Source: a virus. Taken from it: a stretch of DNA of 64,000 nucleotides. Below, in pieces: positions 1 to 56,812 of this stretch. A program made the position numbers and the translations under genes. The notes under the pieces are model-generated. The model saw only the letters and a program-made list of their open reading frames with translations, was not told the DNA's origin and searched no databases. The first letter of the stretch is position 1. The number at the start of each line of letters is the position of its first letter. The stretch lies in IMG/VR virus record IMGVR_UViG_3300029319_009270, positions 1 through 64,000 of that record; one strand, 5' to 3'.

Positions 1-427
1 GCTCTTCAACAACTTCTTTAACGTAATCTTCGTATGGTTGAATTTGGATGACATCATAAACAGTAATTTCATCTTTGTTGTGATACATCCAATTCATGCA
101 TGCGTCTTTGATTACTGTATCCAACTCTTTAAAATCATTCAAGATGTCTATGTCTAATTCATAGGCTACAACTTGCTTTGGAAAATCATCAGCACCAAAT
201 CGGTCAGTCGGTTCGAAACCACCAAGTTCTGCAAATTCTCCAGCTGAGGCCCGTGCTTCTTCATCGTCTGTCATTGCCAGCATCTTTATGTTCTTTTTTT
301 GTTTTTCATTGTAATATAAGTCTTCAAGCGGGTCACTTAATGGCTCCTCTACAGGGATAACAAACTCACCATCCCTTCTAACTGAAGCTTCTATCAATCT
401 TCTTAATTGTCTTTTTGTTATTTTCAT
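1..427 (-). CDS. capsid-targeting-helix protein, 3' end missing
   Basis: The reading frame is open from the ATG at 427 to the window edge (142 codons), so the C-terminus lies outside. It begins MKITKRQLRRLIEAS, the basic amphipathic helix that opens the next seven genes too; L-I-E fits the T4 prohead protease consensus [LI]-x-E. Residues after the helix (VEEPLSDPLED, later FPKQVVAYELDIDILND) parallel IEEPLEDPRDF and LSKQMRMYDAGLDLINDPE of the upstream neighbour, so the two are paralogs. The start lies one base after that neighbour's stop. Inferred role: internal head protein packaged in the capsid and perhaps injected. No enzymatic motif seen. Confidence 0.75.
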   Translation of the reverse strand, partial: MKITKRQLRRLIEASVRRDGEFVIPVEEPLSDPLEDLYYNEKQKKNIKMLAMTDDEEARASAGEFAELGGFEPTDRFGADDFPKQVVAYELDIDILNDFKELDTVIKDACMNWMYHNKDEITVYDVIQIQPYEDYVKEVVEE

Positions 428-428
428 A

Positions 429-1538
429 CTAGTATCCTAATTTCGCCATATTAACTAAGCCTAAAAGATAATTTACATCACCTGGGTCTGCTTCGTCATA
501 TTCATTATTTTTTAACGCTAATTGTAAATCTTCAAGAATCGGTAATACGCCTCGCGAATCTTTAAAACCTCTTTTTGCACCAGATAACTCATTCAGCAAT
601 AACAGCAACGTGGTATCTGGTTTAGGCAACCAGATTGCATCTTTATACATAACTAATTCTTCTAATGCTCTGCTAATCTCATCAGAATTTGCAACTTCAG
701 CTATTAGCTTTCTCAATTGTCTTTTTGTTATTTTCATTTTGCCTTCTTTTATCATCGACATGTCTTGCTTAGGATTATGCTTCTGAATAGTTGTAGTGAA
801 TATATCGTACATCGGTTGCATCGCTTTGTCGTAAATGTGTTGAGCAATTGCAGGACCAAAATTAATGCGCTCTTCATAGCTTCTTCTCTTGAATAGATTA
901 TAAGCTTTCTTAAGTGTTGCAACACGTTGTTTGTCACTCGATTGAGCAGCTTTAAATTTTTCGTAAATCAGTCCGCGGACTTCGTCCATGATAGAGTTAA
1001 CTATGTCAATGTGAAGAGCAGGTGTGTCTACTGCGATATCAATGTTAAAATTAGCGTCCTTGGGCATTTTGTCGTACCAGTTTGGATCTCCATTTAAATA
1101 TAACTGAAAACCTCCTGGTCCTTCTGGATACTTATAACCAGCTTTTAAAATATCAGCAAGGTCAATTGCAAAAGCTTCTCGACGTCTAGGGTTGAAATAG
1201 CGATCAACTGCTGCATCAATTATCTGATCAATTTCCGGATCATTAATTAAATCCAAACCTGCGTCGTACATTCTCATCTGCTTGCTTAGAGTATCCGCGC
1301 TGAAACGTCCTGAACTGGGGAAACCTAAAGTGTCGGCTATGTTGTCTGCTTGTGCCGACGTCTCCAGATCATCTGATCCCGCTAAACCAAAGAGTTTTTC
1401 TTTGTTTACATCTGATAGGTCAAAATCAAAGTCTCGTGGATCTTCAAGCGGTTCTTCTATAGGAGCAACATAGCCAGGACTTCGTTTTATAACTGAAGAT
1501 TCTAATAATTTTCTTAATTGTCTTCTTGTTAATTTCAT
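429..1538 (-). CDS. double capsid-targeting-helix protein (possible polyprotein)
   Basis: 369 residues. The N-terminus MKLTRRQLRKLLESS is the array's shared helix, and a second complete copy, MKITKRQLRKLIAEV, starts at residue 268. The first part (16-260) is paralogous to the partial downstream gene; the 85 residues after the second copy are unrelated to it. The internal ATG at 737 is preceded by AAGG at short spacing, so it may also be an internal translation start. Either the protein is a fusion of two capsid-targeted proteins with two protease sites, or it makes two products. Function unknown. It overlaps the upstream gene by 4 bases, suggesting translational coupling. Confidence 0.8.
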   Translation of the reverse strand: MKLTRRQLRKLLESSVIKRSPGYVAPIEEPLEDPRDFDFDLSDVNKEKLFGLAGSDDLETSAQADNIADTLGFPSSGRFSADTLSKQMRMYDAGLDLINDPEIDQIIDAAVDRYFNPRRREAFAIDLADILKAGYKYPEGPGGFQLYLNGDPNWYDKMPKDANFNIDIAVDTPALHIDIVNSIMDEVRGLIYEKFKAAQSSDKQRVATLKKAYNLFKRRSYEERINFGPAIAQHIYDKAMQPMYDIFTTTIQKHNPKQDMSMIKEGKMKITKRQLRKLIAEVANSDEISRALEELVMYKDAIWLPKPDTTLLLLLNELSGAKRGFKDSRGVLPILEDLQLALKNNEYDEADPGDVNYLLGLVNMAKLGY

Positions 1539-2053
1539 ATTTCATCGCCGGGATGACGTGCTTGCAAGCCAGGATAATTATTCCAAACATGGTCGTACAT
1601 ATCTACACCATATATTTCGTATGGCTCTACATTTAAAATGTATTGTAATAGTGGCTCTCTTATTTCATTCGGATTTAATGGGTCATAAGGCGGATACGCA
1701 CTGTAGTACAAAATTGTCATTTGCTTAGAGAGTTCCTCATCAGTTATCGGACCCATCGTATCGCCCGGGTCGTCTCGATCAATGTCTAAGCCTAAGTCTC
1801 TGGCTTGCATTATCAAGCTCATAAAATAAGGAATAGCTCGATCCAGTGCCTCTATCATTGACGCCTTAGTAGTGCCACCATAAAACTTTTGAAGAAGATT
1901 ACCATTTTCATTCTTATAAATTTTAATATAGCCTACATCACCGCCACTTGAGTCTCCATGATCGACTGGCGGAAAAGTACCCCCGAGCGATCTGTCACCG
2001 CCCATATAGAATTCACGAATTAGCTTTCTCAACTGGGCACTTGTTAATTTCAT
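1535..2053 (-). CDS. capsid-targeting-helix protein
   Basis: 172 residues starting MKLTSAQLRKLIREF, with I-R-E matching the prohead-protease form. A short central stretch, DEELSKQMTILYY, resembles TLSKQMRMYDA of the 369-residue neighbour, suggesting distant homology within the array. The rest is acidic and rich in Asp, Pro and Tyr, with no catalytic motif or membrane segment. The stop is separated by a single base from the start of the preceding gene's product, and it overlaps the next gene by 4 bases, so the array is probably one operon. Likely an internal virion protein by analogy; function unknown. Confidence 0.75.
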   Translation of the reverse strand: MKLTSAQLRKLIREFYMGGDRSLGGTFPPVDHGDSSGGDVGYIKIYKNENGNLLQKFYGGTTKASMIEALDRAIPYFMSLIMQARDLGLDIDRDDPGDTMGPITDEELSKQMTILYYSAYPPYDPLNPNEIREPLLQYILNVEPYEIYGVDMYDHVWNNYPGLQARHPGDEI

Positions 2054-2054
2054 A

Positions 2055-2810
2055 TCAAACTACCATGTCCGGATCAAGCGTGTAGCCGTTGCGTTCTAAT
2101 CCTATTACGATTATCTTTTTGTTCGGATCCTCGACGCCTTCTGGTGATCTGGCACCTTGATCTTTAAAATATGCTGCGACGGCAGCTGTTTTATTAGGTA
2201 GGTGAATCATCCCATTCTCCAAAGCCTCAGTATAAAACACTGTTGCTGATTTCGACAGATATATTATCGCGTGCAACAGTGCTCTTTCGATCAAATAATA
2301 TTGATTTTTCCTTCCATGTACCTCTTGCATTAATGCATCTAAGTCTTTGACAATTTCAGAAATACTGTTTTCGTTTAACCCAGCTATAGAATTTCCTGCC
2401 ATGACAGAGTCTTCGCCGCGCCAATTTTTTCCGTATCTAGGTGTTGCAATTTGAAGGCCATCGCCCCTGCCTACTGTTATAAATATGTCTTGATCTATTA
2501 CATTCTCCAGTGCTTCATTATGGCCATTTTCACTTAACACATCCGCTACCTTGTCCTTATTCAAATTAACGGGTGTTTTCTGAAATATTTTCAATGCGTT
2601 ATCATAAGCATCAAGATACGTATCAGTAGTGCCTTCTGGGTCTAGCATAGAATCGAGGAGCATATAGTAAGTCGACATGTCGTCAGGATCTTTAAACATT
2701 TCGAGTGTTTCTAGTTGATCAGGTGACAGCCTACTTAAATCTAGACGTGCTCTTGGATCTTCCATTGATTCTCTAATTAATTTTGTCAATTGCCGTCTTG
2801 TTATTTTCAC
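2055..2810 (-). CDS. capsid-targeting-helix protein (GTG start)
   Basis: An upstream ATG at 2828 is in frame, but AAGGAG lies 6 bases before a GTG at 2810, and starting there gives MKITRRQLTKLIRESM, exactly the array motif. I therefore choose 2810 (251 residues). The segment LDLSRLSPDQLETLEMF followed by YYMLLDSMLD parallels IASLSNEQQEMLYGI and FFSLLDTLTLD in the gene at 3680-4345, and C-terminal helices also align, so these two are paralogs. Predicted internal head protein; no enzyme motif seen. Confidence 0.75.
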   Translation of the reverse strand: MKITRRQLTKLIRESMEDPRARLDLSRLSPDQLETLEMFKDPDDMSTYYMLLDSMLDPEGTTDTYLDAYDNALKIFQKTPVNLNKDKVADVLSENGHNEALENVIDQDIFITVGRGDGLQIATPRYGKNWRGEDSVMAGNSIAGLNENSISEIVKDLDALMQEVHGRKNQYYLIERALLHAIIYLSKSATVFYTEALENGMIHLPNKTAAVAAYFKDQGARSPEGVEDPNKKIIVIGLERNGYTLDPDMVV

Positions 2811-2829: not shown

Positions 2830-3612
2830 TTACGCGAGATCGTTCATGATTTCTACATACATGTGTTGAATATACTTACCTAACCCTTCCCTCGCATTAT
2901 CTTCAATGCCTTGAAGATTGGCTAAATTTGTCAAGGACCACTCCATATCTTCAATCAATCCATCCATAAATCTATTGTTGGTGATCAGTGATTCCTTGTT
3001 GTCACGGTAGGCAGCAAGGTTCTGTAATGTTGCTTTGAACTTTAAAAGATCTTCACCAGCTGAACTTAAGAATTCATCGCCATCTTCATCATACTCCACA
3101 TATCTATAGGGATCTGGAACGTGCACAAATTCTGTTCCTCTTCCTCTTAGTATTGCATCAAGCAGACTCTGTGGTGTATGTGATTTACCCATCGCTTCTG
3201 CCACTAGTGAACGCAGATTGCTTCTAGTAATAATGCTTTCATTAGTAAGATTTTCATCTCCGCTAACAGGCATCTCGCTAAAACCCCAGCTTTCTTCTAA
3301 CTCTTGCTTAAGTGACTGCAATCTTTCAATTTCTTCAAGAGTTTTTAAATAAGTCTCGAAAGCTTCTGCTTCTACAAGTCGACCTTCCTCTTCCTCTTCA
3401 TTTCTGATATCGTGTTCATATCGACCATATGTCATTGGTTCAAAGTCTTCAATCCCTATTCCACTGGACGGATCTCCAAAATCTGAACCTGCTAATGATC
3501 GAACTTCGCCAGGAGACTTGTATTCCTTGTCGTATCTGTCACGCATCGGATCTCGCTTGTGAGCCATTTCTTTTAGAACTAGATGTGTTAATTGTTTTTT
3601 TGTTATTTTCAT
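2830..3612 (-). CDS. capsid-targeting-helix protein with second internal copy
   Basis: 260 residues. Starts MKITKKQLTHLVLKEM; L-K-E fits the protease form. A second, degenerate copy, IITRSNLRSLVAEAM, lies at residues 127-141 and has no ATG of its own, so it is part of the same polypeptide. Between them is a charged, Glu-rich segment; after the second copy comes a different, mostly helical domain of about 120 residues. This repeats the two-module layout of the genes at 429-1538 and 38728-39447. AAGGTGAAACA precedes the start, and it is the first gene of its block, after a 67-base AT-rich gap. Confidence 0.75.
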   Translation of the reverse strand: MKITKKQLTHLVLKEMAHKRDPMRDRYDKEYKSPGEVRSLAGSDFGDPSSGIGIEDFEPMTYGRYEHDIRNEEEEEGRLVEAEAFETYLKTLEEIERLQSLKQELEESWGFSEMPVSGDENLTNESIITRSNLRSLVAEAMGKSHTPQSLLDAILRGRGTEFVHVPDPYRYVEYDEDGDEFLSSAGEDLLKFKATLQNLAAYRDNKESLITNNRFMDGLIEDMEWSLTNLANLQGIEDNAREGLGKYIQHMYVEIMNDLA

Positions 3613-3679: not shown

Positions 3680-4345
3680 TTAACTAGTTTTTAATTCTAC
3701 GTAGTAATTTGGGTTGTAATCACTGTATTCCCTTACATATTCTAATATTTTACGTTCTATCTCAATTGTGCTCTTATTAGAATATTCAGCCAGTTTATTC
3801 ATTATGTCTTCAAGTTCTTCTTGGTCCGGCCCCATAGTGCTAAAAGGTCCTCTTCGGCCGGTTACAGTGATAGGACGACGTGCTCTTAGCGAGTAAATAG
3901 ACAACAACTGCGGATTGTCAAGGGCGTCAATCTGGTTTGCCTGTATCTTATCATAAAGAGCATTATGATCTTCTCTAGATATGTTATCATCTATCTTCAA
4001 AAACAATACAATTCCTTGCTCTGCTAAGAGAGTTGTGATTAAGACATCATACATAAAAACGTCTTCTTTCTTAAGCATGCTCATACCAGGTATAGAATTC
4101 TCAAAACCAGCGGGTGACATGAAATATTCATAAGAATCAAAACTGTCATCATCTAACGTTAACGTGTCTAGTAACGAGAAAAACTGGGGAATATCACCTG
4201 ACGCTCTAATTCCATACAACATCTCTTGCTGTTCGTTACTAAGGGAAGCTATTCGCGCATCGATATCTTTAGACAAACTATCACCTACTTGGTCTTCAAT
4301 GGCTTCTCTAATCAATCTTCTTAATTGCTGGCTCTCTATTTTCAT
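3680..4345 (-). CDS. capsid-targeting-helix protein
   Basis: 221 residues opening MKIESQQLRRLIREAI. Paralogous to the gene at 2055-2810: both have a short helix-rich domain centred on a Gln-Leu-(Glu/Met)-x-Leu segment, followed by (F/Y)xxLLDxxLD and similar C-terminal helices with ITV and IERxxLxxxxxY. No catalytic or membrane motif. It starts 2 bases after the stop of the preceding gene. Predicted internal virion protein. Confidence 0.75.
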   Translation of the reverse strand: MKIESQQLRRLIREAIEDQVGDSLSKDIDARIASLSNEQQEMLYGIRASGDIPQFFSLLDTLTLDDDSFDSYEYFMSPAGFENSIPGMSMLKKEDVFMYDVLITTLLAEQGIVLFLKIDDNISREDHNALYDKIQANQIDALDNPQLLSIYSLRARRPITVTGRRGPFSTMGPDQEELEDIMNKLAEYSNKSTIEIERKILEYVREYSDYNPNYYVELKTS

Positions 4346-4347
4346 AT

Positions 4348-4968
4348 TTAATTGTTTCCAAATAAATTTTCAATTTCATCAGAAAGATCTCCAAAGTCCG
4401 GACCTAGCATATTTTTAATCTGCACTAATTTTAACAGATACAGACCAATAAGCCACTCCTCTAAGACATAACCCATACCTCCGGAATGTTCCCCTGCCAA
4501 AGCAGAAGAATATGACATTCCTAATCCGCCCTCAGCTGTCTGGTATATTTCCTCACCTTGCATACCTTCATTGCTTATTAGATTGACAATCTCTCCGCTA
4601 CTCATTCCTAAAGAAAGGGACGGATAATTTGGTAACTGATCTAATAATGCAGGGAAAAATGACATACACGGCTTCTCTTTTGTCCCACCGTACATAGAAT
4701 TGTCAGCGATTGCATATATCAAATTCTGTATGTCACCACCTTCTCCCCGGTGTCTTGCTACAAAAGGACCAAGCACAGCATCAACTGCTGAATGGCTTGA
4801 GGCAAAGATATTGAAAATATCTAAATCTGCGGCAAAAGCAAGCTCTTGTGCTTGTATCAAACCTTCAATTCCGGATGCCATCAACCCGGCGATTTTTTGC
4901 TCAGCGGTTCTAGGTTCATCAATAGCCTCAGCAATTATCTGCCTTAATTGTTTTTTTGTTATTTTCAT
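4348..4968 (-). CDS. capsid-targeting-helix protein, Ala/Gly-rich
   Basis: 206 residues opening MKITKKQLRQIIAEAI, with I-A-E then Ala, a textbook match to the T4 gp21 site form. The body is hydrophobic and rich in Ala, Gly, Ser and Met, unlike its acidic neighbours, with several potential amphipathic helices (residues about 25-60 and 150-195). That composition would suit a protein that contacts membrane or coats other proteins, but this is speculation. It overlaps the preceding gene by 4 bases (ATGA). Confidence 0.75.
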   Translation of the reverse strand: MKITKKQLRQIIAEAIDEPRTAEQKIAGLMASGIEGLIQAQELAFAADLDIFNIFASSHSAVDAVLGPFVARHRGEGGDIQNLIYAIADNSMYGGTKEKPCMSFFPALLDQLPNYPSLSLGMSSGEIVNLISNEGMQGEEIYQTAEGGLGMSYSSALAGEHSGGMGYVLEEWLIGLYLLKLVQIKNMLGPDFGDLSDEIENLFGNN

Positions 4969-5417
4969 TTTTGCCTCATCATCGCGATTACATTTTGCAC
5001 CTGGTTTTGCATCGCAGTAGCATTTTCTAAACTATCAAGTGGTAGCGGTGTAACGTTTTGGTTTAGTAAATTTAAGAAGCGTATACCTTCTGCCTCTTTT
5101 GCAATAATCAAAGACGGAGGATTAACTAAAATCGCTTCGCCATCAGGCAAGATCATGTAAAAATCGATAAACTTTTTTAATCCACTATACCCTCTGGGTG
5201 TCTTATAGGGCACACCTTTGGTCATAAAAAAGTTACCCACCCTATGTTTGTCTTTTTTAATTGTTGCACTTGTTTCTTGTCCTGTAGCGAGAGCTTGCAT
5301 TGATGGTGGTAAAGATGCCACATCCTCTTCGTACTGTTCATCAGAAACAGTCTTAACCCTAAACTCGTGTGCAGCTTCTGCGATTAATTGTCTTAATTGT
5401 CTTCTTGTTATTTTCAT
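4965..5417 (-). CDS. capsid-targeting-helix protein
   Basis: 150 residues from the ATG at 5417, chosen over an in-frame TTG two codons upstream because AGAGGG lies about 7 bases before the ATG and the product then begins MKITRRQLRQLIAEAA. After the helix comes a small alpha/beta-looking domain (residues 50-130) containing VGNFFMTKGVPYKT and MILPDGEAILVNPPSL. It is the first gene of the array in transcription order. No function recognised; inferred head protein. Confidence 0.75.
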   Translation of the reverse strand: MKITRRQLRQLIAEAAHEFRVKTVSDEQYEEDVASLPPSMQALATGQETSATIKKDKHRVGNFFMTKGVPYKTPRGYSGLKKFIDFYMILPDGEAILVNPPSLIIAKEAEGIRFLNLLNQNVTPLPLDSLENATAMQNQVQNVIAMMRQK

Positions 5418-6465: not shown

Positions 6466-8430
6466 ATGCCAAGAATAAGAAATATGGGGACAGCAACCAT
6501 GAAATTCGGCGAAGGAATCGTCGTGTCAGGAAGTGCTGCGAACAAGAACAATACATCTTCTGATTTCACACTAATCGTCTCGGGCAGTTCTCTCTTAGAG
6601 GACGACTTAAGACTTAGAGACACGTTTGGCAGATTATATTTTGGCCAGACAAACAACGACATCTACCTGCGGACCACCGACGGTGACACGCTTGGCATTA
6701 ATGCACCCGCGACAGCATGGTCAATTGGTGATAGCAGTGGAAACACAAAGGATTCCGATCAGATTAGAATAAACAAAGGCGGGCAAGAAATATTTAAAAT
6801 TGGAAAAGACGGATTTGAGTGGAATAGGGTTGGGCTTATAGTTGGTACGACAGGAAGCTTTAATGTTAACGGTCTCTCAAAATTTAAAAAGGGTCTTGTT
6901 GCAACAGGAAGTGCCGGTGAAATGTCTTCTGCAGATTCAGAGTATGCAGCATTTCATTCAAGCGGTTCAATAATGCTTTCATCAGAATCTGACACTACGG
7001 GCATGGATATTGAAATTCAAACAAAAAGACCTAGACTTGTTCTAAAAAGTCATGCAGGCAGTTCGTACAATTCAGCAGTTGTTTTTGACAAGTTCAATGA
7101 TTCTGGTGACGGTAGTATATCAGCTGTTGCTTCTGGCATGACGTTAAGTCAAATTGATGCTAACGGTTTTGACGGTTCAGCGTTAAGAAATGCTACAAGT
7201 ATAAAATCAGTAGTCGATGGGACACCAGGTAGTGGTGACATGCCCGGACGTCTAGAATTTAGAACTTCACCTGACGGATCTGCATCTGTTGTTACGAGAA
7301 TGACAATTAAGAATGATGGAAAAGTTGGGATTGGAACTACTGATCCGGACTATGAACTGGATGTTGCGGGTGATATTGGGCTAGCTGAATACATTTATCA
7401 TAGAAATGATGATAACACTTATATAAGATTTCAAGATGATGATATCAATCTGCAAGTTGGTGGCAGATCTATGATCAAAATGAGTGAAGGTTCAATAGAT
7501 CAGGTTTTAATAATGTCTGGCGGATCCGCAGCTAGTCCCGATGTTAAGACTTCTACAGACACTAACTTTTTTGTATCAGGATCTATCGATTCAATAGATT
7601 CATCTACTCAAGGCACATCTGTTTTTGGTGGTGATGTTGTCATTAGTGGGAGCACAAAAATAAAAGATGTGCTACGAATCAGTGAATACATTACACATGA
7701 AACTGACACGAACACTTACATTAGATTTAACGGTGGTGACACTATTCAAATGTATGCTGGTGGGATAGACTTTATACAATTAAGAGAGCACAGTGAGGAT
7801 CTCTTGATGTTAAACCCTAGTTCTAGAGAGATGGATCTACACTTTTTTCATGATGACACAAGTAACAACGCGCGTGTATTCTTGCTAAGTGAAGGAGCTA
7901 GCTCAACCCCTACAAACGCGACAGATCTTAGTTTTTTCGTTTCGGGATCAATTGGTTCAAGGGGTGGGTCTGCAAAGGGAACAGCAGTATTTGATGGTGA
8001 TGTTGTAATTTCAGGAAGTCTTTACACAAAACAACGTCATGTTAACAGCGCAAAATTTAGCAGCACAGATAATTCACAACGATACGTCCGATGGGATGCA
8101 GCAGGTAGTAATGGTTCTCCAGGTGTAAATAATAAGTTTATAGCTCCGGCTGATGGGCGTCTTTTATTTGTTACAGTACGTTGTACTTCAGCTGCTAACG
8201 GCACTAATGTCGCATTTCATAAAGCATCAGATGGAACTGCTAATTTAAACACAACTGCAATAGAAACAGTAGGCGTTGATATTGATTCAAGTAACACTTC
8301 TTTTCAAGTACAATTCACGTCAACATCTAATTTTAGTGCCGGTGATATTTTAGGAATATCTATAAATCCAACCAGCACACCTAATGATGTCAACATAACT
8401 TGCGTTTGGGAACTAGACTTTGTTAGTTAA
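6466..8430 (+). CDS. tail fibre or spike-like virion protein
   Basis: 654 residues on the plus strand, with GGAGAAGTT before the ATG. The sequence is rich in Ser, Gly, Asp and beta-strand repeats. VGIGTTDPDYELDVAGD near residues 285-303 is the motif common in phage tail-fibre and spike proteins, often near an intramolecular chaperone. Two internal repeats run about 306-400 and 405-520, each with NTYIRF, then FFVSGSI and GTxVFxGDVVISGS. The last 100 residues look like a compact beta-sandwich and could bind the receptor. It is convergent with the metalloprotease gene, the two stop codons overlapping. Confidence 0.7.
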   Translation: MPRIRNMGTATMKFGEGIVVSGSAANKNNTSSDFTLIVSGSSLLEDDLRLRDTFGRLYFGQTNNDIYLRTTDGDTLGINAPATAWSIGDSSGNTKDSDQIRINKGGQEIFKIGKDGFEWNRVGLIVGTTGSFNVNGLSKFKKGLVATGSAGEMSSADSEYAAFHSSGSIMLSSESDTTGMDIEIQTKRPRLVLKSHAGSSYNSAVVFDKFNDSGDGSISAVASGMTLSQIDANGFDGSALRNATSIKSVVDGTPGSGDMPGRLEFRTSPDGSASVVTRMTIKNDGKVGIGTTDPDYELDVAGDIGLAEYIYHRNDDNTYIRFQDDDINLQVGGRSMIKMSEGSIDQVLIMSGGSAASPDVKTSTDTNFFVSGSIDSIDSSTQGTSVFGGDVVISGSTKIKDVLRISEYITHETDTNTYIRFNGGDTIQMYAGGIDFIQLREHSEDLLMLNPSSREMDLHFFHDDTSNNARVFLLSEGASSTPTNATDLSFFVSGSIGSRGGSAKGTAVFDGDVVISGSLYTKQRHVNSAKFSSTDNSQRYVRWDAAGSNGSPGVNNKFIAPADGRLLFVTVRCTSAANGTNVAFHKASDGTANLNTTAIETVGVDIDSSNTSFQVQFTSTSNFSAGDILGISINPTSTPNDVNITCVWELDFVS

Positions 8431-8945
8431 GGTAGCCAAAATTCCCTTCCCATCTTATGATAGAGGGGATGCATGATATGACCCGGTTCATCAATGTGGG
8501 TAAACCCTAGGGCATGCCCTAATTCATGCTCGTTGATTAAATCTAAATTAAACGAACCTGATTGATAATAAATGATTGCGCCTTTCATCTCGAAATATCT
8601 AGAATATCTTTTGGTGCTAGCAATTGTATTAGCAGGTAGAGAACGAGTTCGCCTCAATATTATGAAACCTTCAAGCCAGCTGTTATCACAAACAGAATTT
8701 GGCGGATTATGCTCATAAAAACCTATTGGGTAACCGTTGTCTTCCCAATAATTTATAGCTCTTTTAATTTGATATTCATTAAAGTCAGGGCCATAACAAT
8801 TAATAATCGCCGGTGGGTGCTTCCACGTATAGGGCTCAAACATTGAAGCTTCATATCGATACTTCATTGCCAGTCCTAAAAGAAAACCTATTATTAAACT
8901 AGCTAAAAGTATAAGAAGTACTCGCGAGACTTTCACGTCCCGCAT
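8427..8945 (-). CDS. membrane-anchored matrixin-like zinc metalloprotease
   Basis: About 172 residues. A hydrophobic segment near the N-terminus (about 8-27) is probably a signal anchor. The zinc motif HELGHALGFTH, 11 residues, matches metzincin HExxHxxGxxH, and IMHP eight residues later is the Met-turn, so this is a matrixin-type peptidase. In such enzymes the Glu is the catalytic base. There is no obvious propeptide. The start is uncertain: a GTG at 8951 and an ATG at 8945 are both in frame, overlapping the end of the lipoprotein gene. Likely exported; possible roles are envelope protein cleavage or lysis. A second member lies at 59454-59900. Confidence 0.75.
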   Translation of the reverse strand: MRDVKVSRVLLILLASLIIGFLLGLAMKYRYEASMFEPYTWKHPPAIINCYGPDFNEYQIKRAINYWEDNGYPIGFYEHNPPNSVCDNSWLEGFIILRRTRSLPANTIASTKRYSRYFEMKGAIIYYQSGSFNLDLINEHELGHALGFTHIDEPGHIMHPLYHKMGREFWLP

Positions 8946-10492
8946 CCCCACGATGCATATTCGATATCAATGGTTTGTCCTTCTGATGGTTCATATCCGT
9001 GTTCAAAAATAACAGCATTTTGATCTTCATCATACTCCCAATCTGTTGTTTGTTGTCCGTTAACATAAACCTCGATTGTATTTTCAATGGGATCGTCCTC
9101 AGTGAGTTTAAACACTCTTCTTGCTGTTACCTCCCCGGCTAAGTCTTGCAACTGTACACCCCAATCAGATGCACAAATCGAGTACCAGTTTCCGCCATAG
9201 TGATCTATTAGATCCCAATATCCTTCCCCAGCCTGGGCTGTTCTAAAGTATCCGTTATGTTGATATTGACATCCGGCTGGATAATCACCTATGACACCAT
9301 ACGGAATGAAATCACCAGCTGGTTTAACTGCATCAAAAAAAGTAAGATAAGATGACCACCCGGGAGATGAATGATCAGGTTCATCTGAAACAAAAATTAC
9401 TATAAGTTTTGCTGATTCTCTAAAGAAGCTACCCCCAGGGCCAGCAGCATTCGGGTCACTAAGACTGTTATATGCCATCTGAATTCCTTTTTCAATTCCG
9501 GAACCGTAAGTTCCTAACAAAACTAAACTTGATAAAGCAGCTTCAGGATCTGGGTGTGTTGTATCAATTATTGTTGAAAATGTAGATCGGTCTGTAGTGA
9601 TTACAGACATTCTATAATCTGCTCCTGTCGTGGAAAAAGCATTCATAAAAGAACCAATATTTGTCGATAGATTTGTCTGAAACGGCATCATCGATCCAGA
9701 GTTATCAATGACCCACAAAACATCTAAAACAGGTATTTCATCTTGCTGCCATTGATCTGTATGCCATTGTTCAACGTCACCGTCGCCATACTGCACAACT
9801 GTCTGTTCAGGATTTAAAGGGTCATCTCCTTTTATTGTTATTGAACTTTCATCTCTCCCAATATCTGATGGAATATATGAAACTAAAAAGTCTATTTCTT
9901 GTCCTGGAATTAAGACCCAAGGAGGCTCAGGAAGACTCCCGTATTCCATTGCAATATCAGCAGGTTGTGAAACCATCTGAATTACTGATTCTACAGTTAA
10001 ATCCAAATTTCCTTCGTTTCTTATTGTTACTCTTTCTTCATTGTCACAGCCAATTGATATATCTCCATAATCAAAAATGTCTGGGTCGACGGTCATAACT
10101 GGCGCATCCCCATATCCTTCAAGCGTAATAACTGACACCGGTTCATCTTCGTCATCTGATATTATTTCTATATAAGCACCATTTGACTCATATGTCGCAG
10201 GGGTATACCCAACTTCAAATTCTAATAACTCGCCTGGTTCAACGACATACAATTCTTCACTAGCGTTTAAAGTAAACCTAGAATTACCAGAAACTAATTC
10301 GGGAGAAAAGATTTTAAGTTCTTTGTCTCCCGTATTAATAATTTGAAAAGTATCTTGTCCTGATTCATGGCCTGATTTTAAGTGGCCAAAATTAATATGT
10401 TCAGGATGAACCAATATTTCTTGTTGTCGTTTTTCTATGCCCGCAACTAAGTAATCATTGCAAGCTAGTAAACTTAATAAAAATAAAACCAT
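8933..10492 (-). CDS. lipoprotein with ASH-type repeats and VWA domain
   Basis: 519 residues from the ATG at 10492, preceded by AAGGGGG. A signal peptide ends in LLAC (Cys 11), a type II lipobox. Residues about 28-230 hold two immunoglobulin-like modules of the choice-of-anchor-D/ASH type (FGHLKSG...NTGDKEL; YGDISIG...NEGNLDL). A von Willebrand factor A domain follows, with the MIDAS motif DNSGSM near 263 and further acidic loops. This layout is common in surface proteins of myxobacteria-like organisms and unusual in a phage. It may have come from a host and act at the infected-cell envelope; virion attachment is an alternative. Confidence 0.75.
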   Translation of the reverse strand: MVLFLLSLLACNDYLVAGIEKRQQEILVHPEHINFGHLKSGHESGQDTFQIINTGDKELKIFSPELVSGNSRFTLNASEELYVVEPGELLEFEVGYTPATYESNGAYIEIISDDEDEPVSVITLEGYGDAPVMTVDPDIFDYGDISIGCDNEERVTIRNEGNLDLTVESVIQMVSQPADIAMEYGSLPEPPWVLIPGQEIDFLVSYIPSDIGRDESSITIKGDDPLNPEQTVVQYGDGDVEQWHTDQWQQDEIPVLDVLWVIDNSGSMMPFQTNLSTNIGSFMNAFSTTGADYRMSVITTDRSTFSTIIDTTHPDPEAALSSLVLLGTYGSGIEKGIQMAYNSLSDPNAAGPGGSFFRESAKLIVIFVSDEPDHSSPGWSSYLTFFDAVKPAGDFIPYGVIGDYPAGCQYQHNGYFRTAQAGEGYWDLIDHYGGNWYSICASDWGVQLQDLAGEVTARRVFKLTEDDPIENTIEVYVNGQQTTDWEYDEDQNAVIFEHGYEPSEGQTIDIEYASWGCGT

Positions 10493-10899: not shown

Positions 10900-11604
10900 A
10901 TGGAAAAGAAAATCTATTTATATGCAGACAATATTGGATCTGTTGAATATGTAAGTCACATGGGTAAAGATATTACCATCGTCAATAGTGCAAGAGTTTC
11001 GTTTGGAAAGCATAAGGAGAGTATGGATGAAAAAGACAGAAAACTTATTAAATACCTCATCAAACATAGACACACGTCCACGCTGGAACACAATCTTGTT
11101 ACATATCGTTTTGTGGTACCTTTGTTTGTGCGTAGTCAGCACCACCGTCATAGAACTTGGTCTTATAATGAAATTAGTCGTAGATATACTGATGAAAATT
11201 TACGATTTTATGAGCCAGTAAGTTTTAGAACACAACACAAATCAAATCGACAAGCAAGTAATTTAGATAAAATTAATCCTGTCATATACCCAGACTGGGA
11301 TGATCCAGAAAGCGGTTACAAAGCAGATCAAATTATACAAATGCATCACAAAACATCTGTCACGTTATACAATGATTTGATGAAACAAGGCGTTTGTAGG
11401 GAACAAGCGCGTGGAGTTTTACCTCAAAATCTATACACAGAATATTATGGGACCGTCAATCTTAACAACTTGCTTAAATTTATTGACTTAAGAACCCATG
11501 AGGGTGCACAGTGGGAAATACAAAAAGTTGCAGAAGCTTGCTTAGAAATAGCTACTGACTTATGGCCTGAAACTGTTAATGCATATAAATTAATTAGACA
11601 ATAA
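10900..11604 (+). CDS. thyX: flavin-dependent thymidylate synthase ThyX
   Basis: 234 residues from the ATG at 10900, preceded by GAGGTGTTT; an upstream in-frame ATG at 10831 gives an unlikely leader. The ThyX signature RHRTWSYNEISRRY lies at 83-96, including the substrate-binding RHR and the conserved Ser and Tyr. The C-terminal half carries CREQARGVLPQNLYTEYYGT and RTHEGAQWEI, also typical. The enzyme makes dTMP from dUMP using methylene-tetrahydrofolate, FAD and NADPH. One of only two sizable plus-strand genes here; it converges on the next gene with an 11-base overlap. It should supply dTMP for the AT-rich genome together with the dCMP deaminase. Confidence 0.93.
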   Translation: MEKKIYLYADNIGSVEYVSHMGKDITIVNSARVSFGKHKESMDEKDRKLIKYLIKHRHTSTLEHNLVTYRFVVPLFVRSQHHRHRTWSYNEISRRYTDENLRFYEPVSFRTQHKSNRQASNLDKINPVIYPDWDDPESGYKADQIIQMHHKTSVTLYNDLMKQGVCREQARGVLPQNLYTEYYGTVNLNNLLKFIDLRTHEGAQWEIQKVAEACLEIATDLWPETVNAYKLIRQ

Positions 11605-12856
11605 TTAATCTTTCTATTAAAGCCTTCAATTGTCTTAACGTAATACTTACGATTCCTTCGTTAACTGATTCTGCCCTGGGTTTTGCTCTCCGAGCTCTAC
11701 CAATGATCTGATTTGCCATAGCAAAAGCACCGGTTATTTTATATATCTTACCGCCCTTTTCAAAAACAACGCCTTCAAGAGACGATGCTACATTTTCTAT
11801 ATTGCCAAGTTTTGCTAACTGCCTATCAACGAGCTTGCCCATTTTTTCATCACCTGATTCTGCTAATGATTCTAGATATGAAATACTTTCTTCTAACTCT
11901 TCTCGTATGCTCTGAACAGCAGCATCATGATCGACAACAAAAAAGCTCTTAATACCTCTAAGCACTTCTATCGCAAAATCGTTAATAATGTTTTCAAGAG
12001 GTCTCAGAACTACACCAATTACTTTTTTAGCGTTTACCTTTGTGCAGTATTTTGATATCTTTTTAGACATTTCTTTTGTCTTTCCGTATTCTTTTTTAAT
12101 ATCCCTCAATTCAAGTCCGCCGGGTTCCTTAAAAACATTCCTTATTATTTCATCGCATGCATTAGCTGGGATATCTTCTGACAGCATTAAATTTTTATAA
12201 TATATTTTGCATAGACTCTTAATTGTGCCGTCCATACCCACTGGTTCTGCCAGTTTTTGTATTTTACTAACCACTGCTTGGTGTGCTTTTCCATCCGCGA
12301 TATTATTGAGAGGAATAACTTGGGGCCCATATACGCTCCAAGCTTCTCCGTCAATTTCAACTTGAGCACTGTCCAAAGCAGATCGCAGACGCTCGAAAGA
12401 CTCAGAGGTTTCACCTCCGTCAATTGATATTAAGTTATGAAGCACAACGTACGATGCACCATAAATTATAATATTAGGGTTGCCTGGATACATTATCTCC
12501 ATGTTAACGTAGCTTTTTCCGCCATCAAATATATCAATGACATCTTCCTGATTAAGGGAATTAATTGCTGCACCAATGGCTCTAAATCCTTTCATAAAAG
12601 CATCCTCAGCAGGATGTCCTTTCCACTTCGCCGCATAATCACTAGTCGTCATGCCGCCTTTTTTAATATCTGTTGGATTACGTGCAGTTCTTATTTCTCC
12701 TAAAGAATTAACAGTTAAAAATAGGTTTTGCCCGTCTACCTTTTCAACAACTTCAATGTCTGCTGACGCAACTTGATTTAATATTGACACTAACTCATTA
12801 AAAGTTAAATCTAAATCTTCATGAAGATGTGCCATGTGTCCGGCCGCTCCTCCCAT
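11594..12856 (-). CDS. nucleotidyltransferase/ligase-like protein (DUF6267-like)
   Basis: 420 residues, with GGAG 7 bases before the ATG. Residues 8-50 (HLHEDLDLTF...VVEKVDGQNLFLTV) contain a K-x-D-G-x-N motif resembling motif I of the ATP-dependent ligase/nucleotidyltransferase superfamily. The C-terminal EGVVFEKGGKIYKITGAFAMANQ resembles motifs IV-V. The overall pattern recalls a cyanophage protein family (DUF6267) of unknown function. A helical region (about 250-350) separates the two parts. The last residues, SITLRQLKALIERLI, look like the capsid-targeting helix but at the C-terminus. Role unproven: nucleic acid end repair or a virion enzyme. Confidence 0.6.
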   Translation of the reverse strand: MGGAAGHMAHLHEDLDLTFNELVSILNQVASADIEVVEKVDGQNLFLTVNSLGEIRTARNPTDIKKGGMTTSDYAAKWKGHPAEDAFMKGFRAIGAAINSLNQEDVIDIFDGGKSYVNMEIMYPGNPNIIIYGASYVVLHNLISIDGGETSESFERLRSALDSAQVEIDGEAWSVYGPQVIPLNNIADGKAHQAVVSKIQKLAEPVGMDGTIKSLCKIYYKNLMLSEDIPANACDEIIRNVFKEPGGLELRDIKKEYGKTKEMSKKISKYCTKVNAKKVIGVVLRPLENIINDFAIEVLRGIKSFFVVDHDAAVQSIREELEESISYLESLAESGDEKMGKLVDRQLAKLGNIENVASSLEGVVFEKGGKIYKITGAFAMANQIIGRARRAKPRAESVNEGIVSITLRQLKALIERLIIV

Positions 12857-16670: not shown

Positions 16671-19121
16671 CTACTGTTTTTTCTTGGCAGAGTACAATAA
16701 ATTTTTAATTATATTTTCATAAGATGACTCAGACATTGAATCCAATTGCAACTGATTATCAAATAATGATCGCGTTGGTTGTGCTTGTGACAACACACCA
16801 GGTGCAACAACAGACTGCTGACTAGGGCCTCGCCCCTTCAAAGACCCTATTGTCTGGGCGAGCGAGCTGTTTAAAGCGACTAAGCTGTCATTTATTTTAT
16901 CAATAATAATCTTAAAAGAACTGTAACTGTCAACAATGCTTTCACTCGTTGTAGTCACAGCGTCCATCACACCCAATACATGTTGTAATACTGAATTTGT
17001 TTGAGTGTCGAGTTGTTGATAATATGTTTCAAGAGCAGACACAATCTTATCAAGTGCTGCCCCTCTTTCAATATCTGTCTTACTATCATCGTTAACTGTT
17101 TCAACTAAGGCAAGGAATTCTGTTGAATCTAATAAATTACTTAATTGCGTTGGATAAAACCTATCAAGAAGCAGTATTAACTCTTGTAATTTGTTTCTGT
17201 TGTCCTCATCTAATCTAGCTGTATCATAAATTTTCTGTAGTTCTGATTGATTTCGAGACAATCTATCTAATTCGGCTTTTACTTTATTTAATTCTGTCAG
17301 CAAGTCCTTTTCAATTAATCCACCTCCCGGAGAAGATGCAGCAGCTGAACTGGGCGTATACGTTGCTCCGGTTCGTAATTCAGGAGAATCTGGTGATATT
17401 CCTGCCAACAATATTACAACTTCGTAAGTATCATAAGCTCCACCATATTGTTGTTTGAAAACGTTGACTGAGTTTGGTTTTGCTACAGGTACCCCTGTCT
17501 GCATTGACAGCCCAACATATATATTTGCTCTCCTTGTGATCCCCGATAAATTTGTCTTCGTGCCCACCTGGGTGAGACTTTGGGGCTCTGTAGTTCCTGG
17601 ATTATTCAATCCTAACACTTCAAATCTCTTGCCTAAGAAGCATCGCATAGCTGCTGTAACATATTCGCCAATAGTACTTTTCGGATCTTTCCTGGGCAAC
17701 TTTGCAATTACAAGCTTTCCGGCGCTGGGGTATCTTGCATTGAGATCCAGACTATTGAGCCGAGCTGCTATTTGACCTTTTTGTGCATTAGTAATTGTTG
17801 CGGTATTATTATATATCGTTTTTAAAGAATTAGCTGTGGCGGGTGCAGTTGGACTTTCTGTGCCCATGGTTCCTAAATATTTTATTCGAAATGCTTTATA
17901 ACCGTCAACGCTAAATTCATACTTAAGATCATAAAAAGTTCCAGCGTCAGAAGTTTTTGTAAAAGAACCGTAACCCATTAATTCGTCAATATATTCTTCT
18001 AGCTTTTCCTTCTTTCGGACTGAGCTTGAGAATGCTCCGGTAAAATCACCAACTTTTTTCGGAGGCTTGGTGGTAAAAACTGTTTTAAAAAGAAAAGCTA
18101 AAGCATCTGATTTGTCATTGTCGTTTGCTATTGATAGTCCCCTAAAATTTAAATCATTAGCAATGTCTGTATTTGTAACTTTAAAGTTAGCTGGTAATTC
18201 ATCTTTAAAGTCATCAAACAACAACTTAAGTGTGCTGCCGTTAAATACATTACGTGAAAAGTTAACAATTCCCAAAGAACTAGCAAACGATTCTGACTTT
18301 TTTACAGACACGTCATAAGGTGAAGGTCTTTCATAGTTATTTTGGTGTGATATTCTGATGTTATGATTTTGAGGAACTACATATTGCATCAGGATAGGTG
18401 TCGTTCTTGCTAACACTGCTTCAGGAGCGGTATTTGGAAATTCTAATTCTAACGCTTTTCTGACTAAAGATGAATAACGTTGATCAAGAATATTGGCTGT
18501 ATTTGTACCTGACCCCTCAACAAACATTGGTTTAAAAGCAGCGACCCCACATTTAAGTAGTAGATCATCATAGTTTGCTAAAATAGCACCATTATTCTCA
18601 AGGTGTACAGCAATCGCCTTTGCCATTTCGACAAGGTTGTCTTGCTTAGGTTGATTTCCATCTAGAGGATCTTTGTTTTTAACCAGGGTAGCTTTTGCGC
18701 TTACCATTGTCGAACCAAACTTATAGATTCTATTGCTATTATCAAGACTATCTGTGCCGGCAGAGAAGATGTCAGCCCAAACAAAGTTATTGCCGCCTAA
18801 GGCTCCGTTGTTCCCAGTGTTCAAATTGTCGACTAAACCTTGAAACGGTCCGCGTGCGTTTAGAACGTCTATACCTAAACCCTCTAATTGTTGCCCAAAA
18901 CTAGTGCCTTCTCCTTTAAGTAATTTCAACATAGAGTCAACATCATCGGGATTGCTAAAATAAAAAACCCCTGGAGATGTCGAGGTAGCCTCATCGAGAT
19001 ATTTATTGCCCGAACCGCCAGGAACATTCTCTCGTGATATCTGGGGTTGAAGTGTTGGTTTATTGGTTTCCGCTAGTATTTTTTCTAAAATTGATACTAA
19101 AGTTTTTTCTTTTAAAATCAT
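16671..19121 (-). CDS. large virion-protein candidate with capsid-targeting-like helix
   Basis: 816 residues. The N-terminus MILKEKTLVSILEKILAETN ends in L-A-E before Thr, which fits the protease-cleaved capsid-targeting form though divergent from the 1-5 kb array. The middle is Asn/Ser/Thr-rich with many strands; residues about 585-760 are long coiled coils with Gln, Ser and Asp. No enzymatic motif found. Followed by a coiled-coil membrane protein. Best guess: internal head or tail structural protein. Confidence 0.6.
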   Translation of the reverse strand: MILKEKTLVSILEKILAETNKPTLQPQISRENVPGGSGNKYLDEATSTSPGVFYFSNPDDVDSMLKLLKGEGTSFGQQLEGLGIDVLNARGPFQGLVDNLNTGNNGALGGNNFVWADIFSAGTDSLDNSNRIYKFGSTMVSAKATLVKNKDPLDGNQPKQDNLVEMAKAIAVHLENNGAILANYDDLLLKCGVAAFKPMFVEGSGTNTANILDQRYSSLVRKALELEFPNTAPEAVLARTTPILMQYVVPQNHNIRISHQNNYERPSPYDVSVKKSESFASSLGIVNFSRNVFNGSTLKLLFDDFKDELPANFKVTNTDIANDLNFRGLSIANDNDKSDALAFLFKTVFTTKPPKKVGDFTGAFSSSVRKKEKLEEYIDELMGYGSFTKTSDAGTFYDLKYEFSVDGYKAFRIKYLGTMGTESPTAPATANSLKTIYNNTATITNAQKGQIAARLNSLDLNARYPSAGKLVIAKLPRKDPKSTIGEYVTAAMRCFLGKRFEVLGLNNPGTTEPQSLTQVGTKTNLSGITRRANIYVGLSMQTGVPVAKPNSVNVFKQQYGGAYDTYEVVILLAGISPDSPELRTGATYTPSSAAASSPGGGLIEKDLLTELNKVKAELDRLSRNQSELQKIYDTARLDEDNRNKLQELILLLDRFYPTQLSNLLDSTEFLALVETVNDDSKTDIERGAALDKIVSALETYYQQLDTQTNSVLQHVLGVMDAVTTTSESIVDSYSSFKIIIDKINDSLVALNSSLAQTIGSLKGRGPSQQSVVAPGVLSQAQPTRSLFDNQLQLDSMSESSYENIIKNLLYSAKKKQ

Positions 19122-27895: not shown

Positions 27896-29485
27896 TTAGA
27901 AACTTTCTGTTTCTTTTGAAATTTCTTCCACCATTGCGCATTCTGATGTTAGGAGCAATGTTGCAGCTGAACATGCATTTTGGATCGCGCAACGAACAAC
28001 TTTAACAGGATCAACAACACCTAAGTCAAACATATCTCCAAATTCTTCTTTTCTAGCATCATACCCATAAGACACATGATTTTTTTCCGCAATTTTTTCT
28101 ATAACCATATCAGGAGATCTACCTGTATTTTTAACTATTTGTTTTATCGGGGATAAACATGCTTGCTTTACGATTGAATATCCTGGATCATCTGTGATGT
28201 CACTAGAGCTTATATTATGTGATGCTCTAACTAAAGCGACGCCACCACCTGGAACAATTCCTTCCTGCAAAGCAGCACGTGTTGCATGCAAAGCGTCATC
28301 TACCCTGTCTCGTCTTTCAATCATCTCAGCTTCTGTGCTAGCTCCAACTCGTAATAATGCAACTCCACCGTTTAGCTGATGTGCTCTATATTTTAATGTT
28401 TCATACTCGTTTGTTTCCAAATCAGGTGATTCCATTCTTTGCTTAATACTTTCTAATCTTTCTTTGACGCGTTCATCAACAGACTTGTTAGCAACAAATA
28501 ACGTTGAAGATCTCTTAACAATTACTTTCTTGCAAGTCCCAAGATCATCAACAGTAAAATCATCAATAGAGTTTGAATTGTCAAATACTTTTGCTCCAGT
28601 TAGACATGCTAGGTCATGAAGCATGTCGTACCTAGCACTTCCAAAACCAGGAGACTTAATTGCACAAACTTTTAAATTACCTTTGACTCTGTTAACTACC
28701 AACCCTTGAAGCGCTTCATTGTCAATATCATTTGCAACAACGAGTATAGGCTTCCCAGTTTCCAGCACTGATTCTAGAGGCTTAATGATATCCTTCATTG
28801 TATCTAACTTTTTATTGCATAAAAATACAAAACAATTTTCTAGGAGCGCATGCATCTTATCTTGGTCAGTGATAAAGTATGGGGACAAATATCCTCTATT
28901 TAATTGTACACCTTCCACGATTGTAAGCTCGCTTTTGTAACCTTTGGCTTCTTCGACCAAGACACTCCCGTCAACACCAACCCTAGATATTGCGTTAGTT
29001 ATTAGTTCAGCAATTTCTTCCTCTCCATTAGAAGATATTAGCGCAATCTGTTTAAGCGACTGCTTATTTTCTATAGGCTTGGCTGATTCTTTTAACTGAT
29101 CAACAATATCACTAACAGCACTTTCCATACTTTTTCTCAGTAATACTGAATCTTGTCCTGATGATATCATTCTCAAACCTTGCTCATATAAAGCTTGAGT
29201 CAACACTGTCGCAGTTGTCGTTCCATCTCCTGCTTCCTCAGCAGATCTAGAAGCTGCTTCTTTAACAACTTGAACGCCTAAGTTTTGAAACTGATTTGAA
29301 AGATTAATTGCTTTTGCAACTGTAACACCATCTTTTGTAACAATTGGATGTTGACCAGGTCTTTCAATTAGAACTGTCTTGCCACGTGGTCCCATTGTTG
29401 TTCTAACTGCACTGGCTAATATATCAACACCTTGTCGAATACTTTCCCTTACCTCATGGTCAAATTTAACTACTTTTCTTGTCAT
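27896..29485 (-). CDS. groEL: chaperonin GroEL (phage-encoded)
   Basis: 529 residues, near the usual 548. DGVTVAKAI and GDGTTTATVLTQAL near 84-97 are the ATP-binding signatures; the apical part (VEGVQLNRGYLSPYFITDQ, FGSARYDML) and C-terminal GIVPGGGVAL also match. It lacks the Gly-Gly-Met tail. No GroES gene is found next to it; it may use the host GroES or work alone, as proposed for other jumbo-phage chaperonins. Needed for folding of capsid or other phage proteins. Overlaps the small upstream gene by 4 bases. Confidence 0.94.
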   Translation of the reverse strand: MTRKVVKFDHEVRESIRQGVDILASAVRTTMGPRGKTVLIERPGQHPIVTKDGVTVAKAINLSNQFQNLGVQVVKEAASRSAEEAGDGTTTATVLTQALYEQGLRMISSGQDSVLLRKSMESAVSDIVDQLKESAKPIENKQSLKQIALISSNGEEEIAELITNAISRVGVDGSVLVEEAKGYKSELTIVEGVQLNRGYLSPYFITDQDKMHALLENCFVFLCNKKLDTMKDIIKPLESVLETGKPILVVANDIDNEALQGLVVNRVKGNLKVCAIKSPGFGSARYDMLHDLACLTGAKVFDNSNSIDDFTVDDLGTCKKVIVKRSSTLFVANKSVDERVKERLESIKQRMESPDLETNEYETLKYRAHQLNGGVALLRVGASTEAEMIERRDRVDDALHATRAALQEGIVPGGGVALVRASHNISSSDITDDPGYSIVKQACLSPIKQIVKNTGRSPDMVIEKIAEKNHVSYGYDARKEEFGDMFDLGVVDPVKVVRCAIQNACSAATLLLTSECAMVEEISKETESF

Positions 29486-38727: not shown

Positions 38728-39447
38728 TTAATAACCATCATCTTGCGAAATTATTTCATCATAAAGGTCGTATAATCTGTCGGGAATATCAATTTCACTA
38801 TAATATTTTCTAATGATATCTTCAGCAGCTTTTTGATCAACAATAACTAAATCTGCATACATTGTCATAGGTCCGGGAACATTCTCATACATTGCAACTA
38901 CAATTCCGTCTTTATTAACAAAAGCGTCATCAGATTCAATATAGTTTAAATAACCAGAGTCACTATCCGCTATATCTTCTAACACGTAAACTGTGTTATG
39001 TGCCAAAAGAGTATCAAGAATAGCTTCATCAGAAACATTAGCAGAAGGCGGATCTCGGTCTGATTCGTGTGGAGTCATAGCATCATAACTGGCTTGTGCT
39101 CTACTAAAAGCGGCATTTCGCCTACTATGATACATTTCTTTAATTAGTTTTCTTAACTGTGTTCTTGTGATTTTCATAAGATCGCTAGGTGTTCGTCTTA
39201 TGCGTGGACGAGGTCTATTGGCTCTTTGTTTGACATCACGATCTACCCGATCTCGCCAAGCATCATCAGGGCTAACGTATTCATAATCCGGAGGAGCTAA
39301 TTCAGGATCGCCCAGCAAACCTTCGTACCCGCCTGGAGCACTTATTTCCTCCTCGCCAAACTCATAAGGAAGATCATGATTAGTGTATATGTCTTTAGGC
39401 ATCTCTTTCAAGATTATCTTTCTAAGCAACTTCCTATTAAGCTTCAT
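38728..39447 (-). CDS. double capsid-targeting-helix protein
   Basis: 239 residues with MKLNRKLLRKIILKEM at the start and MKITRTQLRKLIKEM beginning at residue 91. The first piece (17-90) is acidic then Arg-rich; the second (106-239) is acidic and helical. No ribosome binding site precedes the internal ATG, so two protease sites in one polypeptide is the better reading. It lies inside the lysis-like cluster, away from the main array. Confidence 0.75.
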   Translation of the reverse strand: MKLNRKLLRKIILKEMPKDIYTNHDLPYEFGEEEISAPGGYEGLLGDPELAPPDYEYVSPDDAWRDRVDRDVKQRANRPRPRIRRTPSDLMKITRTQLRKLIKEMYHSRRNAAFSRAQASYDAMTPHESDRDPPSANVSDEAILDTLLAHNTVYVLEDIADSDSGYLNYIESDDAFVNKDGIVVAMYENVPGPMTMYADLVIVDQKAAEDIIRKYYSEIDIPDRLYDLYDEIISQDDGY

Positions 39448-45408: not shown

Positions 45409-46074
45409 CTAGCTCACGTATTTCAATATTAATTCAGGCACTGAATAATTGAACAACTCAAAATCTTTTTGATACAGATTGTAAAAATATTTTGTAACAT
45501 CTGGCGAATATTCCCAGTCAGGTTGTATATCTTTATTAATTCTGGATTTATTCATGTGAGGTAGTTTTTGATTGCTGATGACGTCTTTGTCATTTAAAAA
45601 CTTTATAACATTTTCAATTTCTTCAAATTTAAAAACTTTTGTTTTATCATCAACAAAATAATGTTGAGGCACCCAGTGATTATCGTCGAAACCCATTCCT
45701 AATTTAGGAACAAGATCTGTAAAAACTGCGTGCATATAATGAATAATCCCATGAGGCGTTATTGAGTTTCTAGTAATCGTGGTTGTCTCTAGCTTTTCGT
45801 AACCTTTAATTACATAAAATATTTCTGACAACATTCTTTCTATGGGATTTCTAACGATCGTAAATGTAAATTCAATGTCTAGATCTGAATTCATTTTATT
45901 ATACACGTCTTTCGTATGATGAGGATGCGCCTTAAAATAGTTTGACTCTTTGGTAAAAAACCTTTTCTCATCTTTTTTCCAACCTGCACTTTGTATTAGT
46001 TTTCTTATAGAAGTACCTCCAGTTTTAGGTATGTGCACAAACTGTATTGTTCTGTTGTCTTTATAGAATATCAT
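45409..46074 (-). CDS. sulfotransferase-family protein
   Basis: 221 residues. HIPKTGGTSIRKLI at 14-27 is the PAPS 5'-phosphosulphate-binding motif and TIVRNPIERMLSEIF the 3'-phosphate motif of Sulfotransfer_2-type enzymes. It would move sulphate from PAPS to a sugar or lipid hydroxyl. Overlaps the DnaE start by 4 bases (ATGA). Possible targets are the glycans implied by the epimerase genes. Catalytic His is likely among HPHHTKD. Confidence 0.82.
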   Translation of the reverse strand: MIFYKDNRTIQFVHIPKTGGTSIRKLIQSAGWKKDEKRFFTKESNYFKAHPHHTKDVYNKMNSDLDIEFTFTIVRNPIERMLSEIFYVIKGYEKLETTTITRNSITPHGIIHYMHAVFTDLVPKLGMGFDDNHWVPQHYFVDDKTKVFKFEEIENVIKFLNDKDVISNQKLPHMNKSRINKDIQPDWEYSPDVTKYFYNLYQKDFELFNYSVPELILKYVS

Positions 46075-56473: not shown

Positions 56474-56812
56474 TTAATTTTTTTCAACAATTGCTTTCAA
56501 TGGAAAACCAGACTGTCTAGCATAATCAATGACTTGAGCAGATTTTGTATCAGCAATCTCTTTGCTGAAAGGGCCGCCTGCTATACCCTTCCCTTTTTCA
56601 TGAACAGAGCTAGCTATATTCCACGCTGTATCAACATCTTTATAAAAAAAAGTAATTAACACTATAACAACAAATTGAAAATGTGTATAGTCATCATTTA
56701 ACAAGACAACGTTGTATTTACTAGGTTTTACTACTTTATTCTTTTCTTTTTGTCTATCAAGTAGATCTACACCGCTATCACAATCTTTGCTTTCTTTCTT
56801 TTTTTGAGTCAT
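56474..56812 (-). CDS. clpS: ClpS adaptor protein
   Basis: 112 residues, close to bacterial ClpS (106). [20 protein letters not shown] is the core strand-loop motif, [21 protein letters not shown] and [18 protein letters not shown] match the rest. Bacterial ClpS binds N-degron substrates and hands them to ClpAP. A phage copy may redirect host ClpAP to chosen proteins, or block its normal work. Followed directly by guaC. Confidence 0.92.

Follow-up and report, generated by a model that had tools for sequence, protein, structure and literature searches.

A 369-aa reading frame with two leaders

How does one open reading frame (ORF) come to carry two complete copies of a short leader, and is it translated into one protein or into two? 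The question is raised by a 369-aa ORF (429..1538, minus strand) in the window, i.e., the 64,000-nt stretch of DNA that was analyzed, which belongs to a virus record of 90,544 bases. The ORF opens with MKLTRRQLRKLLESS (residues 1–15; 1494..1538, minus strand), and a second copy, MKITKRQLRKLIAEVA, starts at Met268. The internal leader comprises residues 268–282 (MKITKRQLRKLIAEV; 693..737, minus strand) and has the start codon ATG 737–735. On a position-specific scoring matrix (PSSM) of 14 columns, built from 294 leaders, the internal copy scored 35.3 and the N-terminal copy 10.0, while the top score among 290,722 positions of shuffled ORFs was −2.1. Because both scores far exceed the shuffled maximum, neither copy is due to chance, and the second full motif copy that the sequence-only reading had placed at Met268 is confirmed. 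The same is true for the AAGG that it had noticed just before the internal ATG (742..745, minus strand): this Shine-Dalgarno (SD)-like motif ends 4 nt upstream of ATG 737–735, which is a short spacing.

A sequencing or assembly error, by which a stop codon was lost or the frame was shifted, could also have produced a long ORF. The sequence is a metagenomic contig, and no second copy of the locus was found for comparison. However, codon usage of the ORF was positive for its own frame in 17 of 17 sliding windows and negative for the other two minus-strand frames. As one frame fits throughout, no frame break is visible, and the double-leader architecture recurs in other contigs. An artifact is therefore regarded as very improbable.

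Searches for relatives of the 369-aa protein yielded little. No close relative was found in viral_contigs or genome_contigs, searches did not yield a homologue of the second half, and PHROGs and Pfam contained no family for the ORF. A search for relatives via the 816-aa protein encoded at 16671..19121 was also negative. The AlphaFold model, based on a 2-row alignment, had a mean pLDDT of 41, and its quality did not suffice for a fold search.

The ORF is one of eight minus-strand ORFs that follow one another between 2 and 5417, each of which is headed by a leader. The next gene downstream (2..427) is cut by the record end and is a paralogue of residues 1–126 of the 369-aa ORF, with 39% identity. 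The remaining leader genes of the array, all on the minus strand, are located at 1535..2053 (MKLTSAQLRKLIREF), 2055..2810 (VKITRRQLTKLIRES, start GTG 2810), 2830..3612, 3680..4345 (MKIESQQLRRLIREA), 4348..4968 (MKITKKQLRQIIAEA), and 4965..5417 (MKITRRQLRQLIAEA). The gene at 2830..3612 has a weak second, internal copy (SIITRSNLRSLVAEA, about 3193–3237) that is not preceded by a start codon. Elsewhere in the window, a second double-leader ORF was found (38728..39447, minus strand), in which the N-terminal copy (MKLNRKLLRKIILKE) scored 4.4 and the internal copy (MKITRTQLRKLIKEM), from ATG 39177 and without an SD motif, scored 33.8. With this ORF and the weaker internal copy in 2830..3612, the sequence-only reading understates the pattern.

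Ten scanned proteins, seven of which are encoded in the array, had no Pfam match above the cut-off. The ORF at 11594..12856 (minus strand) carries a leader-like helix, VSITLRQLKALIERLIIV, at its extreme C-terminus, with a score of −5.2, and resembling C-terminal copies occur at loci L009, L055, and L061. Among other genes of the window, 46071..49583 resembles a DnaE polymerase (checked), and inspection by eye suggested resemblances to GroEL (27896..29485), adenylosuccinate synthetase (49674..50669), and ClpS (56474..56812) as well as HExxH zinc-protease motifs at 8427..8951 and 59454..59900 (minus strand), namely HELGHALGFTH and HETGHALGIDHYH.

A leader family in environmental phages

The leader has the consensus KITKxQL+xII+E, is strongly basic, and heads hundreds of ORFs in environmental phages. 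At least 119 viral-contig stretches contained the leader preceded by ATG; as this first scan demanded ATG, the ATG counts are biased. A second, complete scan searched for the leader behind any codon not beginning with A, which excludes ATG and permits more than 40 other sense codons. The leader was found in 32 stretches. Once duplicates had been removed, all strict leaders (31 of 31) stood behind GTG (28) or TTG (3), including four internal ones.

In 148 loci, 582 frames contained at least one leader copy with a score of 5 or higher, and in 573 of them a start codon preceded the first copy. Two or more copies were present in 23 of the 582 frames, which together had 24 second copies. The median ORF length was 227 aa for double-leader frames vs. 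104 aa for frames with a single copy. The proteins have little in common beyond the leader, with a mean column identity of 11% among the 35 longest. In this alignment, one member matched a YkuD L,D-transpeptidase and another an HD domain; as judged from these matches, both are possible candidates for cargo enzymes.

The family was not recovered from named phages in the searches performed. A tblastn search with a 39-aa leader consensus gave no match, which may be due to masking, and a protein of a head module (L171:7393–7839) did not match named phages either. The leader pattern occurred in none of five genomes (T4, RM378, a Flavobacterium phage, a Microcystis phage, and an uncultured 484-kb phage), and leader-motif strings of eight to ten residues were found in no paper among the open PMC full texts.

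A probable link to the capsid

The sequence-only reading had called the two helices capsid-targeting. In T4, the capsid targeting sequences (CTS; the propeptides of IPI, IPII, IPIII, and Alt) are short, N-terminal, start with MK, and are found on unrelated small proteins, and the leader is similar in all these respects. As described in PMC9026906, T4 IP propeptides have 10–19 residues, and the gp21 protease cleaves after L/I-x-E, a rule that fits the end of the leader. Glu13 is present in 288 of the 294 seed leaders, in a column that was not used in selection. An [LI]xE ending at residue 13–15 was found in 12 of 12 window leaders examined. Of the other window ORFs, 5 of 53 have one that ends at residue 12–16, and one of these five (59964) is itself leader-like.

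The genomic context points in the same direction. Among 25 leader-bearing records, chosen from the available loci and mostly the largest, 19 encoded a Peptidase S77 (T4 gp21) and 18 encoded gp23, i.e., the T4-type protease and capsid genes are present in the majority of the larger records tested. Of the six records lacking gp21, five are at most 112 kb in size and the sixth has 147 kb. G000 lacks both genes; in the 90.5-kb window record, neither a gp21-type protease nor gp23 was found. The co-occurrence may merely mark T4-like phages, as the comparison covered leader-bearing records only. In five of six protease neighborhoods (L169, L170, L171, L173, and L174), gp21 is adjoined by small proteins whose N-terminal helix resembles the leader; the sixth (L172) has a weaker leader look-alike next to gp21. 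In L171, a typical leader protein follows gp23. Near gp21 of L169, L170, L171, and L174, a conserved protein of 137–148 aa was observed that has an N-terminus like MAKxxRxxLKxLVKECLVEIL and a neighbor of 91–97 aa, and these two proteins are likely prohead core components.

The leader differs from the T4 CTS in its sequence. The T4 ipI, ipII, and ipIII leaders scored −49.6 to −59.5 on the motif, far below even the shuffled 99.9th percentile of about −25. Further differences are that leader genes are numerous, are arranged in tandem arrays, and have internal and C-terminal copies, and that the role of their leader is an inferred one. The leader may thus act like a CTS, but it is not classed as one because the T4 leaders fail the motif. 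This mismatch and the strongly basic character speak for another kind of signal, e.g., a helix that binds nucleic acid, a membrane, or a host factor and is never cleaved. Such a role is, however, rather unlikely in view of the conserved Glu at the L/I-x-E position, the co-occurrence with gp21 and gp23, and the leader-like proteins within the head gene module. In summary, the capsid-targeting reading is indirectly supported by the context and the putative cleavage point and finds no counterpart in the T4 internal-protein leaders; judged from sequence, a capsid-targeting role is likely. In the 369-aa protein, cleavage is plausible after Glu13 (L-L-E|S; 1500..1502, minus strand) according to the gp21-type rule (PMC9026906), and, by the same reasoning, a second predicted cleavage point follows Glu281 (I-A-E|V; 696..698, minus strand).

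Start signals of internal leader copies

The internal copies were analyzed for signals of translation initiation. Of the second copies scoring at least 25, 12 of 17 were located behind ATG, GTG, or TTG, compared with a background of 5.2%. All 12 start-bearing strong copies had an SD motif of at least four bases at a spacing of 3–12 nt, and 10 of the 12 had it at a spacing of 5–12 nt. Among 2020 ordinary internal Met codons, 208 had an SD motif at the latter spacing (Fisher p about 9e-9), as did 408 of 573 first leader copies. The double ORFs of L148, L155, L159, and L166 stem from the ATG-free scan, to which the ATG bias of the other scan does not apply. The two sites that fail the spacing of 5–12 nt are that of L155 and the internal site of the 369-aa ORF itself; a 4-nt spacing like that of its AAGG was seen in one of the 48 first copies to which an AAGG had been assigned.

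The remaining five strong second copies have no start codon, being preceded by ATA (three times), AGG, and GGT, and two of the five have kept an SD motif. C-terminal copies without a start codon also exist, e.g., in L009, L055, and L061. The motif can therefore persist inside a chain. This bears on the possibility that the ORF encodes a true polyprotein, which would be translated from Met1 only and cut by the prohead protease after Glu13 and Glu281 into two cargo proteins, the internal leader acting solely at the protein level. Both sites fit L/I-x-E, the motif has been kept without a start codon in internal or C-terminal copies of L075, L164, L120, L076, and L009, the internal ATG of 38728..39447 has no SD motif, and PMC9026906 describes processing of T4 Alt at both of its ends, including the C-terminus. 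On the other hand, a start codon is missing before just 3 of 276 strict leaders, each of which is preceded by a codon that differs from ATG by one substitution. Start-less internal copies also mostly score lower, as if they were under less selection. The strict form of the leader is thus nearly always behind a start codon, and a polyprotein made from Met1 only is considered unlikely.

Taken together, the start signals favor internal initiation for the leader family, and it would be the better supported part of the proposal outlined below. Of the two options named in the sequence-only reading, a polyprotein cut twice and two products from one frame, the latter is accordingly favored at the level of the family, with an SD motif in 10 of 12 cases, but it is weakened for ORF 429..1538 by the poor SD spacing. 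Because of this short spacing, the chances that ATG 737 is used in the window phage appear about even.

Evidence for a fusion of neighboring leader genes

For at least seven double-leader ORFs, halves are also present as separate ORFs. The modules of the L055 ORF occur alone in L042 and L061, and those of the L155 ORF in L037 and L054/L052. The first half of the L164 ORF resembles L034, and its second half resembles an ORF that is truncated at the edge of L017. For L006, L159, and two L157 ORFs, at least one half is encoded separately elsewhere. No separate full homologue was found in the set for other double ORFs, e.g., those of L017, L060, L075, and L166, and for the second half of the window ORF. 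A search of viral_contigs with an L157 double ORF returned the ORF itself and two weak matches.

A single upstream module is joined to a leader with differing downstream sequence in L157, L089, and L148, and the same module ends without a leader in L147 and L050. A related observation concerns a 460-aa ORF of L157 (4336) as well as L063, L088, and L032: a C-terminal helix of the KIKKIIREVL type ends the stand-alone homologues and sits where the fused ORF has the next leader.

Leader genes lie close together. Tandem leader-gene pairs within 60 nt numbered 324, with a median gap of +1 nt; 123 of them overlap, and 39 are in frame with a stop codon still between the genes. In the case of L055, the fusion is absent in relatives that are 91% identical over residues 89–308, i.e., the second module. 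In these relatives, the second module has its own GTG and an SD motif that lies within the last codons of the upstream gene.

The L055 case shows that some fusions are recent and perhaps neutral, and therefore the retention of start codon and SD motif could reflect recency. A recent neutral fusion, in which the intergenic stop codon was lost, the start and SD motif are undecayed leftovers, and the fused precursor as such is without a role, is thus a serious rival explanation, which we regard as possible but short of probable. It would agree with the overlapping or nearly abutting adjacent leader genes, and no close relative was found in which the fusion of the window ORF is conserved. Arguments against it are that fusions recur in many contigs, that one upstream module has been joined to differing downstream sequences (see above), and that the window record contains a second double ORF.

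The in-frame fusion of two leader genes is itself well supported as the origin of ORF 429..1538. Since a start codon and an SD motif have been retained by most internal copies, we favor an in-frame fusion that can probably still give rise to the second product separately. This explanation and a neutral fusion share a common origin and differ only with respect to function, so that the confidence placed in one overlaps with that placed in the other.

Discussion

The explanation that we consider fairly probable is that two neighbors in a tandem array of small genes, probably for head cargo and each with a leader helix of about 14 residues, were fused in frame to form ORF 429..1538, which would yield a two-leader precursor and/or a separate second product. 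We infer that the leader serves to dock its protein to the core of the prohead and that a protease of the T4 gp21 type cuts it off behind the conserved Glu. Translation from Met1 would then produce a two-leader precursor that could be cut after Glu13 and Glu281, whereas translation from the retained ATG 737 would yield just the second protein, of 102 aa, headed by its leader.

In-frame internal starts are known from phage head genes. In the nested lambda genes C and Nu3, an in-frame internal start leads to a fused and a short product. C and Nu3 are a protease and a scaffold, unlike two leader-tagged modules. For T4, a second in-frame start at Met45 has been described for the head-assembly gene 21, giving gp21s (PMC9026906). 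As far as described there, gene 21 and ORF 429..1538 both have two in-frame starts, the second one being putative in the latter; the gp21s start truncates one protein, whereas the internal leader start would open a separate module with a leader of its own.

A wider proposal, which is made tentatively, is that in environmental T4-like phages head-cargo proteins encoded in large arrays are tagged by a leader family not described before. The start of the gene, with SD motif, start codon, and leader, would serve as a standard joint for the fusion and re-pairing of modules, so that one frame could give rise to a two-cargo precursor that is cut in the prohead as well as to a separately started second cargo. 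If these readings are right, a leader that can be recognized from its sequence alone marks, among the many small genes of unknown function in environmental T4-like phages, those whose products are probably head cargo that is delivered to the host, and the fused ORFs would constitute a natural test of leader function inside a chain.
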